This document shows positions 8,156-13,507 of a stretch of 64,000 nt of DNA, piece by piece. This stretch comes from Salinarchaeum sp. Harcht-Bsk1. GTDB lineage: Archaea > Halobacteriota > Halobacteria > Halobacteriales > Salinarchaeaceae. The stretch covers positions 2,561,014-2,625,013 of the forward strand of contig NC_021313.1 of NCBI RefSeq assembly GCF_000403645.1, written 5' to 3'. The position numbers and the translations under genes are program-made. The notes beneath the pieces are model-generated. The model was not told where the DNA came from, made no database searches, and saw nothing but the letters and a program-made list of their open reading frames with translations. Position 1 is the first letter of the stretch, and each line of letters starts with the position of its first letter.

Positions 8156-9667
8156 ATGCAGCACGGTCGCCTCGCAGTCGTCGATTCGGACGCCCTCGAC
8201 GGGCTGGCGACCGCGCAGCTACGGGACGCGATAGCGGCCACCGATCCGCACGCACTCCTCGCGACCACCCCGAACACGAGAATTCGACTTCGGTCTGCGC
8301 TACCCGAGTTCGACCGGCCGGTCGTCGCGCCCGGATCCGACCAGGCCGGCGGCGAACTGTCGATCGGCGCGGTCGGCGACGTGCAGGTGGCCGTCGCCGG
8401 ATCGACGGCGTCGGTCGCCGATCTCGCGGCGCTAGAAACCGCTGGCGAAATCGACGCCACGACGCACACCTACGTCCTCACGGACGCGCTCGATCTCTCG
8501 GTCCGCCCCACGGAGCTCCGAACTGTTCGCCAGGGCGTCGCGGCCTACCGCCGCGCGATCGCGACCGGCGAACGCGACGCCGACCACGCGCTCCGGGGGT
8601 CCTACACCCATCTCTCCACGAACCTCCCGACCGACTACTACGGCGAGTGGGGCGAACTGACCGTCCGCGGGGTCGCCCCGGGCTCGATCGACGGCGCTCC
8701 GTCCGGGGGCCCTGGCAGTACCGAGACGGCGATCGCGAGCCTGGAACTCGGCGTGGACGGCACCGTGTCGAGTGGCGACCTCCGAGCGGCCTCGCTCGGA
8801 CTGCGAGCGATCGACGGCGTCGGCGAGCAGCGCGCCCGGACGCTCCGGGAGGCCGGGTACCCCGACCGCGAAGCGCTCGCGAAGGCGGACGTCGCGACCC
8901 TCGCGGATCTCGACGACCTCGCTCGCTCGACGGCAACGAGCATCGTCAACTGTGCGCGGGCGTTCGAAGCCGGACGGGTTCGCCGCAGGACCGACGAGCG
9001 ACTCCCCGGCCCCGAACCGATCTTCGTCGACATAGAGACCGACGGCCTCTCACCGTCGACGGCGTGGCTGATCGGGGTGCTCGACAGGGAGGCCGATCAG
9101 CCGTATCGCTCGTTCCTGGCAGCCGATCCCGACCGGCCGGTCGAAGCGCTCGAATCGTTCTGCGCGTGGTACGCGGAGCGCGTCGATCAGGGTTCCCAGC
9201 GGCCACTCGTCGCGTACAACGGTCAGCCGTTCGACTTCCCCGTCCTCGCCGAACTGATCGAGATGCACTGCCCGGAGTACCGTACCGTCTGGGCCGACGC
9301 CTGGACGTTCGACCCCTACGCCTGGGCGATTCGAGACGGCAATGCGTCGTTCCCGGCGCGGACGAATCGGCTCGAGGACGTGGCCACGGCGCTGGGCTTC
9401 GACGACGGTGAAACGACGAAACACGCCAACGCACTGCCCCTGGACGGCGCGGAGGTCGCCAGAGTCTACCGAACGTGGCAGGCCGACCCCTCGCCGGAAA
9501 CCGAGCCGGACTGGGAAGCGCTCGAAGCCTACTGCGAGGCAGACGTGCGGGCACTGGCGCACGTCTACGACGCGATCGACGCGGCGGATCGAACGGCAGG
9601 AGACTCCGGTGGAGCAGTTCGCGAACCGACGGCCGAGACGACCCAGGGGAGCCTGGGTGACTTCTGA
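8156..9667 (+). CDS. DEDDy 3'-5' exonuclease, MrfB/YprB-like, with helix-hairpin-helix
   Basis: The 503-residue protein has three parts. Residues 1-200 are unassigned. Residues 214-265 form a helix-hairpin-helix region (GVGEQRARTLREAG). Residues 285-475 are an RNase H-fold exonuclease: DIET near 290, YNGQPFDFPVL near 354, and the third motif YCEADV near 459, which spells the DEDDy type (Tyr three residues before Asp). This exonuclease pattern is that of Bacillus YprB/MrfB, partner of the helicase YprA/MrfA in mitomycin-damage repair. Here the helicase is two genes downstream in the same tight operon. Repair function is inferred. Confidence 0.85.
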   Translation: MQHGRLAVVDSDALDGLATAQLRDAIAATDPHALLATTPNTRIRLRSALPEFDRPVVAPGSDQAGGELSIGAVGDVQVAVAGSTASVADLAALETAGEIDATTHTYVLTDALDLSVRPTELRTVRQGVAAYRRAIATGERDADHALRGSYTHLSTNLPTDYYGEWGELTVRGVAPGSIDGAPSGGPGSTETAIASLELGVDGTVSSGDLRAASLGLRAIDGVGEQRARTLREAGYPDREALAKADVATLADLDDLARSTATSIVNCARAFEAGRVRRRTDERLPGPEPIFVDIETDGLSPSTAWLIGVLDREADQPYRSFLAADPDRPVEALESFCAWYAERVDQGSQRPLVAYNGQPFDFPVLAELIEMHCPEYRTVWADAWTFDPYAWAIRDGNASFPARTNRLEDVATALGFDDGETTKHANALPLDGAEVARVYRTWQADPSPETEPDWEALEAYCEADVRALAHVYDAIDAADRTAGDSGGAVREPTAETTQGSLGDF

Positions 9668-9668
9668 G

Positions 9669-11021
9669 ATGTACGAAACCGACGCCAGCGCGGCGCTGCT
9701 CGAACGCTGCCGACGCGACGAGATCGTGCATCCCGATTACGGGGGCTACTGCATCGAGGGCGTGCCGGGAACTGCTGCCGGCGTCCTCGGCGTCGACGTC
9801 GGTCAGCCCGATCCGAGCGGCGTCTCCGACGTCAGCGCGTCCCTCCCCGCCGAAACCCTCGGCGGTGCAGTGGGCGCGTCCTCACCTGCGGAAGCCCACT
9901 CCGACGTCTCCCACCCCGACCTCTCCCAGGTCGTCGTCCTCGTCATCGATGGGCTGGGCTGGCATCGGTTCCACCGGGACGCGTCCGATCGTCGATTCGT
10001 CGGCCGATTCCTCGAACGGGGATCCGTCACGCCGTTGACCTCGGTGTTGCCGTCCTCGACCGGCGCCGCGATCCCGACGCTCCACACCGGCGCTCCGCCA
10101 GCCGAGCACGGGGTCCTGGGATGGGACGTCCGGCTTCCCGAGCACGACGCGATCGTCGAGGCGTTCCCGCACGCCGTCCGCGACGGAGTCGAGGAGACGA
10201 CGCCGCCGATTCCCCCGAGCGGGGTCGTTCGGTCGGAACCCATCTATCCGGCCCTGGAAGCTGCCGACGTCGAAACCAGGGTAGTGCAACCGGCTGGCAC
10301 GCTGGGGACGGCCTACGCGAACGCCACGTTCCGCGGCGCGACCCAGGTCCCGTACGACGGGATCGAAGACGGTGCGGAGGTGCTCCGGTCGGTGCTCGAA
10401 TCCAGCGCGGGGCCGTCGTACACCTACGTCTACGTCCCGGACGTCGACGCGGTGAGCCACACCAGCGGCTCGGATTCGGCCGCGTACCACGAGGTGCTCG
10501 AGACGGTCTGTTCGGCACTCGCCCGCGCACTCTACGACGACCTCGACGCTGCGACCGCCAGGGAGACGCTTCTGCTGGTCACCGCCGACCACGGCTTCGT
10601 CGATTTCGACCCCGGGCCCGAAGGCTGTCTCGACCCCACCACGATCCAGGCCGTCGCCGATGCCCTCGAGCGACGCCCGAACGGCGACCCCGTCCCGCCG
10701 TGGGGCGACTACCGCGTCAGTCACCTCGCGGTGCGCGACGGTGAGCGAGCGACGGTCCGGCGGACGCTCGAGGCACGCGGCGCGATCGTTTTCGACGACG
10801 AGACCGTAACCGACGTGGAACTCTTCGGGCCGGCTCCGTCGTCAGCATTCCAGCGCCGGTGCGGTGATCTCGTCTGTACGCATCCCGAGCGGAAGATCGT
10901 GCATCCGGCTGCAGAGCGGATCGTGCCCAAGATCGGGATGCACGGCGGGCCGACGGCGCGTGAGCTACTGGTTCCCTTCGCCGCGGCGAGGGTGTCCCGC
11001 CTTCGATGTGAGAACGAATGA
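9669..11021 (+). CDS. alkaline-phosphatase-superfamily phosphodiesterase/nucleotide pyrophosphatase
   Basis: The 450-residue metal-dependent hydrolase starts at ATG 9669, one base after the exonuclease stop. Metal and nucleophile motifs are visible: VLVIDGLG (87-95), PSSTGAAIPTLHTG near 128 carrying the nucleophile Ser/Thr, AEHGVLGWD, DVDAVSH near 257, and TADHGF near 307. No signal peptide is present, so it acts in the cytoplasm. The gene overlaps the helicase gene by four bases. Its position between an exonuclease and a helicase suggests a nucleotide or nucleic-acid substrate, but relatives also cleave phosphonates and phospholipids. Confidence 0.85.
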   Translation: MYETDASAALLERCRRDEIVHPDYGGYCIEGVPGTAAGVLGVDVGQPDPSGVSDVSASLPAETLGGAVGASSPAEAHSDVSHPDLSQVVVLVIDGLGWHRFHRDASDRRFVGRFLERGSVTPLTSVLPSSTGAAIPTLHTGAPPAEHGVLGWDVRLPEHDAIVEAFPHAVRDGVEETTPPIPPSGVVRSEPIYPALEAADVETRVVQPAGTLGTAYANATFRGATQVPYDGIEDGAEVLRSVLESSAGPSYTYVYVPDVDAVSHTSGSDSAAYHEVLETVCSALARALYDDLDAATARETLLLVTADHGFVDFDPGPEGCLDPTTIQAVADALERRPNGDPVPPWGDYRVSHLAVRDGERATVRRTLEARGAIVFDDETVTDVELFGPAPSSAFQRRCGDLVCTHPERKIVHPAAERIVPKIGMHGGPTARELLVPFAAARVSRLRCENE

Positions 11022-13507
11022 CCGAGTACGACGGCTCCGATGCCGACCGACGGAACGGTGGCTGGAGCGAACACGCGGAGATCCTCGACCCCGCGCACTT
11101 CGAGGCGCGCTTCCCGGACTACGACGACCAGATCGTCCACACCCGGACCCAGCCCGCCGAATCCGCCGAGACTGTTCCGGCCGCCGACGTTCTCCCGAGC
11201 GACCTCGCCGACCGACTCGGCCACGACCTCTACGCCCACCAGGCCGACGCGATCGAGCGACTCCGCGACGGCGAGAACGTCGCGGTCGCCACCCCGACGG
11301 CGTCGGGCAAAACGCTCGTCTACGCACTCTACGTCGCCCTCCGGAAGCGTGCGGATCCCGACGCTCGCGCGATCGTCTGCTACCCGACGAAGGCACTCGC
11401 TCGGGACCAGCGGGCCTCGATCGCCGACCTGTACCGACGACTCGGACTCGATTTCGAGGTCGCGGTCTACGACGGTGACACGCCCGGCCATCGTCGCCCG
11501 GAAATCCGCGAGAACGCCGACGTCGTCATGACGAACGCCGCTGGCCTCAACGTCTACCTCGCCCACCACACGCAGTGGCGGGAGTGCTTCGGGAACTGCG
11601 CGTTGCTCGTGATCGACGAGGCCCACGCCGCGTCCGGGATCCACGGCATGCACGTCGCGTGGGTCCTGCGCCGTCTCCGCCGCGTCCTCGATTTCTACGA
11701 CGCCGACCCGCGGATCGTCTGCACGTCCGCGACGATCGGGAATCCCGCGGAACACGCGCTCCGATTGACCGGGGAGGAGCACGCGGTGGTCGACGCGGAC
11801 GGCAGCCCACACGGTCGCCGGGAGATCGCGTTCTGGAAGCCGCCGCTGGAAGACGACCTCGGCGAGGACTACGGCATGGACGAGTACCTCGGTGCGGTCA
11901 AGCGTGCGGGCGCTGCAACCGGCGAGATCGTGGCCCACCTCGGGCTTCACGGCGTGCAGACGCTCGCGTTCTCTCGCTCCCGGCAGGGGACGGAACTGAC
12001 GGCGAAGGGCGCGGAGCGAGCGGCCAGTGATCACCCTGCAGGTGGCGGATCCGGAGCCGGTAGCGGCTACCTCTCCGTCGCGCCCTACCACGCCGGCCAC
12101 GGTAAGCAGACGCGCCGACAGATCGAGGAACGCCTCCAGTCCGGCGACCTCGACGCCGTGATCTCCACCAGCGCGCTCGAACTCGGGATCGACGTCGGGA
12201 GCGTGGACGCAACGGTCCTCTCGGGCTACCCAGGCTCCCGTCAGTCCTTCTGGCAGCGCCTCGGTCGCTCCGGCCGGGGCACCGAGGACGCGCTCTCGGT
12301 GCTCGTCGGCCGAGCGGACGCCATCGACCAGTACGTCCTCGACCATCCGGAGTTCCTCTTCGAGGACGACGTCGAGGACGCAGTGATCGACCTCGGCAAC
12401 GACGCTGTCTACGCGCGGCACCTGTTGGCTGCCGCGAACGAACTGCCGATCGACCGCGACGACGAGCGGTGGTTCGGTGCGAGTGCCCTGCCGGCGGGTG
12501 AGGTTCAGGACGCCGACGACCGCCTCGACCGCGCCGTCTCGATGTGGCAGGAGGCCGGCGTGCTCGTCGGCGACCTCGACCGCGAGGTCCGCTACGACGG
12601 CCCGCCGCGTCCGGAGGCCGACGTCTCGATGTACGCGACGGACTCGGAGACGTTCCTCGTCGAGTGCGCGGATGGCGAAATCGACGTCGCGCCGATCGGG
12701 AAGGATCGCGCCTACCGGGAGTACCACCCGGGTGCGGTCGTGATCCACGACGGGACCGAGTACGAGGTCGTGGAGTTCGAGGAGGACCTGCCCCAGCCCC
12801 GCGTGACTCTCGCGGAGATCGAGGAGGACGTCTACACCAGGACCCACTCGACGAAGTCCGTCTCCGACGTCGAGGAGCGAACCAGCCGGGACCTCGGCGA
12901 CGGCTGGCACCTGAAGTTCGGCGTCGGCACGGTCAGCGTCCACTACGCGCACTACGAGCGCCGCGACGTCCAGAGCGGCGACCTCGTTGGTCCGATCCAG
13001 GAGACCGGCCTCGGGCCAATCGAGTTGCGAACCCAGCTGACGTGGGTCGAGGCGCCGAAATCGCTGCGAGAGACGGCGCTGGAGGACGTGCCGCCCGAGG
13101 ACCTCCTCGCCGAACCCGCCCAGTACGGACGGGGCCAGCGTCAGTACACCTTCCTCGGCGGTCTCCACGGCGCCGAGCACGCGATGATCGAACTCGCGCC
13201 GCTGGAACTCCGGCTCGACAGCTCCGAGATCGGCGGGCTGAGCATCGATCCCCACCCGGAAACCGGCGTGCCGACCTGGTTCATCCACGACGGCGTCGAC
13301 GGCGGGATCGGGTACGCGCGGGGGATCTACGAGCACGCCGATTCGCTGGTGGCCCGGACTCGCGAGCACGTCGACACCTGTGGCTGTGACGGGGTTCGGG
13401 GCTGTCCGGCCTGCCTGATGGACGTCCAGTGTGGCAACCGCAACGAACCGTTGCATCGTCCGGCGACGATTGCGATCCTGTCCGAACTCGAGGAGCGACT
13501 CGATTAG
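11018..13507 (+). CDS. DEAD/DEAH helicase with C-terminal DUF1998 Cys cluster (MrfA/YprA-like)
   Basis: The 829-residue superfamily 2 helicase has Walker A TPTASGKT (92-99), DEAH near 198, TSATIGN as motif III, TSALELGIDVG near 384 and QRLGRSGRG near 413. The C-terminal part is DUF1998-like and ends with a cysteine cluster (CGC, CPAC and CGN between 787 and 808), the metal-binding signature of MrfA. Bacterial MrfA is a 3'-5' helicase working with the MrfB nuclease. Start ATG overlaps the previous stop (ATGA), so it is coupled to the phosphodiesterase gene. Confidence 0.92.
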   Translation: MTEYDGSDADRRNGGWSEHAEILDPAHFEARFPDYDDQIVHTRTQPAESAETVPAADVLPSDLADRLGHDLYAHQADAIERLRDGENVAVATPTASGKTLVYALYVALRKRADPDARAIVCYPTKALARDQRASIADLYRRLGLDFEVAVYDGDTPGHRRPEIRENADVVMTNAAGLNVYLAHHTQWRECFGNCALLVIDEAHAASGIHGMHVAWVLRRLRRVLDFYDADPRIVCTSATIGNPAEHALRLTGEEHAVVDADGSPHGRREIAFWKPPLEDDLGEDYGMDEYLGAVKRAGAATGEIVAHLGLHGVQTLAFSRSRQGTELTAKGAERAASDHPAGGGSGAGSGYLSVAPYHAGHGKQTRRQIEERLQSGDLDAVISTSALELGIDVGSVDATVLSGYPGSRQSFWQRLGRSGRGTEDALSVLVGRADAIDQYVLDHPEFLFEDDVEDAVIDLGNDAVYARHLLAAANELPIDRDDERWFGASALPAGEVQDADDRLDRAVSMWQEAGVLVGDLDREVRYDGPPRPEADVSMYATDSETFLVECADGEIDVAPIGKDRAYREYHPGAVVIHDGTEYEVVEFEEDLPQPRVTLAEIEEDVYTRTHSTKSVSDVEERTSRDLGDGWHLKFGVGTVSVHYAHYERRDVQSGDLVGPIQETGLGPIELRTQLTWVEAPKSLRETALEDVPPEDLLAEPAQYGRGQRQYTFLGGLHGAEHAMIELAPLELRLDSSEIGGLSIDPHPETGVPTWFIHDGVDGGIGYARGIYEHADSLVARTREHVDTCGCDGVRGCPACLMDVQCGNRNEPLHRPATIAILSELEERLD

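Follow-up and report, generated by a model that had tools for sequence, protein, structure and literature searches.

A probably inserted phosphodiesterase gene in the two-gene MrfB-MrfA operon of a haloarchaeon

Work on Bacillus subtilis has described MrfAB (YprA/YprB), a mitomycin C repair pair in which a DUF1998/MZB helicase is encoded next to a DEDD exonuclease, MrfB, which is of the DEDDh type and carries a C-terminal TPR domain (PMC11194089). In archaea, a precedent for PCNA-linked mitomycin repair is NreA (PMC4929162). Here we analyze a comparable locus of Salinarchaeum sp. HArcht-Bsk1, contained in a 64,000-nucleotide stretch of contig NC_021313.1 (the window), where three plus-strand open reading frames were confirmed in the order nuclease, phosphodiesterase (PDE), helicase. 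An earlier reading of this DNA (the original prediction) had described the same frames, with a single base between nuclease and PDE and a 4-base overlap of PDE and helicase, and these details are exactly as it gave them; it had proposed the PDE as a third component of a MrfAB-like repair or defence system. The three genes appear to be read as one operon in the Salinarchaeum HArcht-Bsk1 lineage. The comparisons presented below make it likely that the locus consists of a two-gene haloarchaeal MrfB-MrfA operon, presumably working like bacterial MrfAB, to which one unrelated gene has been added by insertion.

The nuclease-helicase junction across haloarchaea

The nuclease and the helicase were each searched across the same 146 Halobacteria genomes, an even draw rather than a complete set, in which calls of presence and absence depend on the E-value cut-offs. 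Sixty nuclease genes were found in 55 genomes, and the helicase lies directly downstream, on the same strand, in 60/60 cases. With the family matches given below, this supports the MrfAB-like exonuclease-helicase pair of the original prediction, and the two genes can be described as a conserved adjacent MrfB/MrfA-like pair with the nuclease gene first. Hit-to-hit gaps within the 60 pairs span 14–490 bases; HArcht-Bsk1 alone has 1,354 bases, occupied by the PDE, which is found between nuclease and helicase in 0/59 other pairs. For 42 pairs resolved at base level, nuclease stop and helicase start are −4 to +26 bp apart, except in a single pair, at 120. Five sampled genomes (G031, G033, G037, G046 and G137) each contain two separate pairs, and a separate helicase of ~39% identity is present in many genomes that have no nuclease.

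The only other genome of the same genus that was compared (G146, completeness 93%) is syntenic with the HArcht-Bsk1 locus across ~13 kb, with an SMP-30-like gene, msrB, the nuclease, the helicase, DUF5816 and DUF7116 genes and a solute-binding protein as common neighbours. At its junction, the TGA of the nuclease is followed by the ATG of the helicase with a gap of 0, and no PDE match was found at E 1e-20 anywhere in this genome. The most plausible reading is that the PDE gene inserted, recently and on its own, at the nuclease-stop/helicase-start junction. The gene-neighbourhood survey called for by the original prediction found the three genes together only in HArcht-Bsk1, a narrower distribution than the adjacency confined to close relatives that it had named as counting against its proposal, as the PDE is missing even from the same-genus genome. 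The empty site of the sister species is a clean natural control that removes the lead toward a three-enzyme repair or defence system.

The phosphodiesterase, its family and the alternative readings

The PDE has a Phosphodiest domain (Pfam); inspected by eye, its start (MYETDASAALLERCRRDE) has neither a signal nor a Tat motif. Residues D94, T131, D260, H264, D307, H308 and H425, which we take to be the NPP-type metal ligands and nucleophile, are invariant in both PDE alignments, and the active site is intact. An AlphaFold2 model (pLDDT 90.6) compared with the PDB gave its best match to Xanthomonas NPP (E 2e-18), followed by ENPP6, ENPP5 and phosphonoacetate hydrolase. Fold and metal/nucleophile residues are common to the PDE, Xanthomonas NPP (2gsn/7mw8), ENPP6 and phosphonoacetate hydrolase at only 16–18% identity; the PDE differs from these enzymes in being predicted cytosolic and in belonging to a haloarchaeal family whose genes mostly lie between aroA and aroC. 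It is probably active, hydrolysing phosphodiesters or pyrophosphates in the cytosol, and the alkaline-phosphatase-superfamily enzyme without signal that had been proposed can be narrowed to a cytosolic NPP-type protein. Base composition is uninformative as a marker of foreign DNA, since the GC3 of the PDE gene (0.83) matches that of its neighbours.

Elsewhere, the PDE family has other partners. Clear homologues (E < 1e-30) occur in 43 of the 146 genomes. Chorismate synthase (aroC) lies downstream of the PDE in 25 of 32 loci by neighbour clustering, and 68 of 101 haloarchaeal loci have EPSP synthase (aroA) upstream and aroC downstream, all on the PDE strand (e.g. L044, L047, L127 and L130). One search for related PDE loci relied on the peptide pattern PSETA and misses the subclade of the HArcht-Bsk1 PDE, which has PSSTG; a search of 394 genomes took in that subclade. 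No MrfBA pair was found near any of 65 named PDE loci, the helicase matches of 28–29% identity in four of them belonging to another helicase family. The closest relatives of the HArcht-Bsk1 PDE (G283 at 53% identity, G016 and G214 at 46–47%) form with it a four-member clade (SH-aLRT 100 in a quick tree), of which no member is aro-linked; in HArcht-Bsk1 itself, aroC is ~217 kb away from the PDE. No nuclease was detected at E 1e-10 in G283, G016 or G214. Across the 146 genomes, 17 have both PDE and nuclease, 26 the PDE only, 38 the nuclease only and 65 neither (odds ratio 1.12, p 0.85): the PDE family and the nuclease occur independently.

In genus g34, aroA and aroC are 3 bases apart without a PDE in four genomes (L208–L211) and have the PDE between them in a fifth (L206), which is a second instance of this family nested at a tight operon junction. 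No description of the aroA-PDE-aroC order was found in the open-access papers searched. The aro-linked PDE is a candidate for an accessory role in the synthesis of aromatic amino acids by haloarchaea, and a cytosolic NPP-type family nested in the aroA-aroC operon is a lead for that area of metabolism.

A three-enzyme repair system, in which the PDE acts on the nucleotides or DNA ends that the nuclease sets free, would account for the 1-base gap and the 4-base overlap and would make use of the intact cytosolic active site, nucleotide phosphodiesters being possible substrates of NPP enzymes. Nevertheless, we regard it as very unlikely, because the PDE is missing at the sister locus and in all other pairs, is distributed independently of the nuclease, belongs to a family linked to aroA-aroC instead, and has its nearest relatives in genomes lacking the nuclease. 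It is just as improbable that the MrfBA pair recruited the PDE in the HArcht-Bsk1 lineage alone, for instance to hydrolyse released adducted nucleotides or oligonucleotides, with the packing arising from selection. With the inserted gene as the preferred reading, the PDE would hydrolyse a phosphodiester or pyrophosphate in a separate metabolism and merely share the transcript.

A further alternative, anti-virus defence built on a YprA-family helicase, fares no better. PADLOC helicase models match at up to 4e-36, and the distribution of the pair is patchy, with two pairs in some genomes; however, the PADLOC similarity is to the generic helicase domain, and the flanks are housekeeping genes (msrB and the DUF5816/DUF7116 genes) common to the sister species. 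The neighbours scanned by Pfam include no methyltransferase, PLD nuclease, BrxHII helicase or other partner of DISARM, Druantia, ARMADA or Dpd, and Bell et al. 2025 assign the YprA helicases that accompany MrfB to the repair branch (PMC12458937; the branch of the HArcht-Bsk1 helicase was not computed). A defence role is, on these grounds, improbable.

An ancestral three-gene operon, with loss of the PDE in all other genomes, is extremely unlikely. A single junction cannot tell insertion from loss, but the PDE would have to have disappeared independently from the sister species and from each of the other lineages sampled, with a tight junction left behind every time; parsimony favours insertion. 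In a study of haloarchaeal operons, insertions within operons made up a minority of the single-type changes (86 of 946), and its authors consider a strict separation of gain from loss not possible (PMC7760734).

The nuclease-helicase pair and its proposed role

The helicase matches the B. subtilis YprA/MrfA structure 6znp at 6e-97 over residues 59–800 and includes the MrfA Zn-binding domain (MZB, DUF1998). The relationship of the nuclease is more distant. Its haloarchaeal profile has only a weak direct match to the B. subtilis MrfB structure 8un9 (0.0086), but profile-profile comparison aligns it with methanogen MrfB relatives at 99.2% probability (E 6e-20), spanning the helix-hairpin-helix (HhH) and the core, and the methanogen profile matches 8un9 at 4e-35. 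Because the methanogen relatives bridge the haloarchaeal profile to 8un9, the exonuclease core is taken as MrfB-homologous. D292, E294, D360, Y459 and D463 are invariant in 33/33 aligned orthologues, and the Tyr four residues ahead of the last Asp, present in all of them, makes the site DEDDy, as originally assigned. The HhH proposed along with it is also present (HHH_5); its description as an added domain did not hold, as the methanogen relatives display an HhH-like motif by eye, which the profile-profile alignment covers, in proteins devoid of the haloarchaeal features.

The C-terminus of the haloarchaeal nuclease is a variable linker ending in the pattern Qxx[LIM]xx[FWY] (43/43 sequences, mostly QGxLxDF or QxGLxDF), which occurs in 0.17% of shuffled C-termini; no TPR was detected by Pfam. 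The HArcht-Bsk1 version, QGSLGDF, meets the PIP pattern QxxhxxaA with a single aromatic, at or near the chain end. As the classical PIP motif has two aromatics, binding to PCNA is a prediction: the motif would bind the clamp. A passage in PMC7776575, citing Giroux and MacNeill 2016, gives the Haloferax PIP motif as QxxLxxFx, with which the nuclease tails agree.

Gene pairing, families, active-site residues and motif conservation can be read from the aligned genes themselves. Relative to B. subtilis MrfAB, with which it has in common the adjacent DUF1998/MZB helicase and DEDD exonuclease, the haloarchaeal pair has a Tyr in place of His258, a C-terminal PIP-box motif, the nuclease gene first and no detected TPR. 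The methanogen pairs (L237–L240, L242 and L244) likewise place an HhH-like, DEDD nuclease directly upstream of a YprA helicase, but their nuclease has a DEDDh (HNRQD) site, a shorter N-terminus and no C-terminal PIP motif. The methanogen-type relatives as a whole (L237–L244) have a DEDDh site and an HhH-like motif, and most of them lie immediately next to a YprA helicase. NreA is an unrelated protein that is no partner of a helicase and is not known to have a biochemical activity. The open-access papers searched included none on haloarchaeal MrfB/YprB, and the putatively clamp-tagged MrfBA pair is a little-described archaeal variant.

We infer the substrates, polarity, PCNA binding and damage specificity of the pair, and propose that it acts as a PCNA-tethered 3'-5' exonuclease with a 3'-5' helicase in the repair of bulky adducts. 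At a bulky or mitomycin-type adduct, the helicase would open the surrounding DNA and the damaged strand would be degraded 3'-5' by the DEDDy exonuclease, with the HhH helping to hold the DNA. Through the C-terminal PIP motif the nuclease would be tethered to PCNA, so that repair takes place at the clamp and can be handed over to gap filling. An apparently universal clamp-binding tail, if true, would link an excision pathway of bacterial type with the PCNA toolbelt of archaea.

Several points weigh against a repair pair with a chance insertion. The nuclease is found in only ~38% of sampled haloarchaea, and its role is dispensable for that reason; the lack of a detected TPR and the catalytic Tyr for His may mean that nuclease function has shifted; and the case for the PIP motif is drawn from sequence. 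None of the open-access papers searched described experiments on a haloarchaeal MrfBA. As for the PDE, its tight packing with overlap could reflect selected co-expression in the HArcht-Bsk1 lineage, and a copy might conceivably lie elsewhere in the 93%-complete sister genome, though the junction itself is covered.

Layout of the locus and divergence from the sister species

The coordinates of the genes, domains and junction edges are collected in Table 1.

Table 1. Features of the HArcht-Bsk1 locus, in window positions
Feature	Position	Strand	Evidence
Gene of the MrfB/YprB-like DEDDy exonuclease, predicted 3'-5', 503 aa	8156..9667	+	RNase_H_2 PF13482 2.5e-24, HHH_5
Helix-hairpin-helix domain, nuclease aa 216-268	8801..8959	+	HHH_5 4.3e-9
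DEDDy exonuclease core, nuclease aa 289-473	9020..9574	+	Active-site residues invariant, 33/33
PIP-box-like C-terminal motif QGSLGDF, nuclease aa 497-503, predicted PCNA-binding	9644..9664	+	Pattern in 43/43 orthologues
Probable insertion, left edge: nuclease TGA, G, PDE ATG	9667..9669	+	Sister species: same TGA, then helicase ATG directly
Probably inserted cytosolic NPP-type phosphodiesterase gene, alkaline-phosphatase superfamily, 450 aa	9669..11021	+	Phosphodiest PF01663 6e-23
Probable insertion, right edge: ATGA, helicase start overlapping PDE stop	11018..11021	+	Base-level reading
MrfA/YprA-like SF2 helicase gene, 829 aa	11018..13507	+	DEAD 6e-27, Helicase_C 1e-13, MZB 1.3e-19
MrfA Zn-binding (MZB, DUF1998) domain of helicase	13172..13417	+	Pfam

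A tRNA-Glu(CTC) called by ARAGORN on the minus strand at 11233-11308 was rejected as a false positive, being antisense within the helicase coding region and uncalled in the sister locus. The helicase is 84–87% identical to that of the sister species. Identity drops to 59% for the nuclease (tblastn; window 8156-9667 against L034:8098-9639), most other neighbours being at 70–84%, which suggests that the nuclease evolves faster than its neighbours or was partly replaced.

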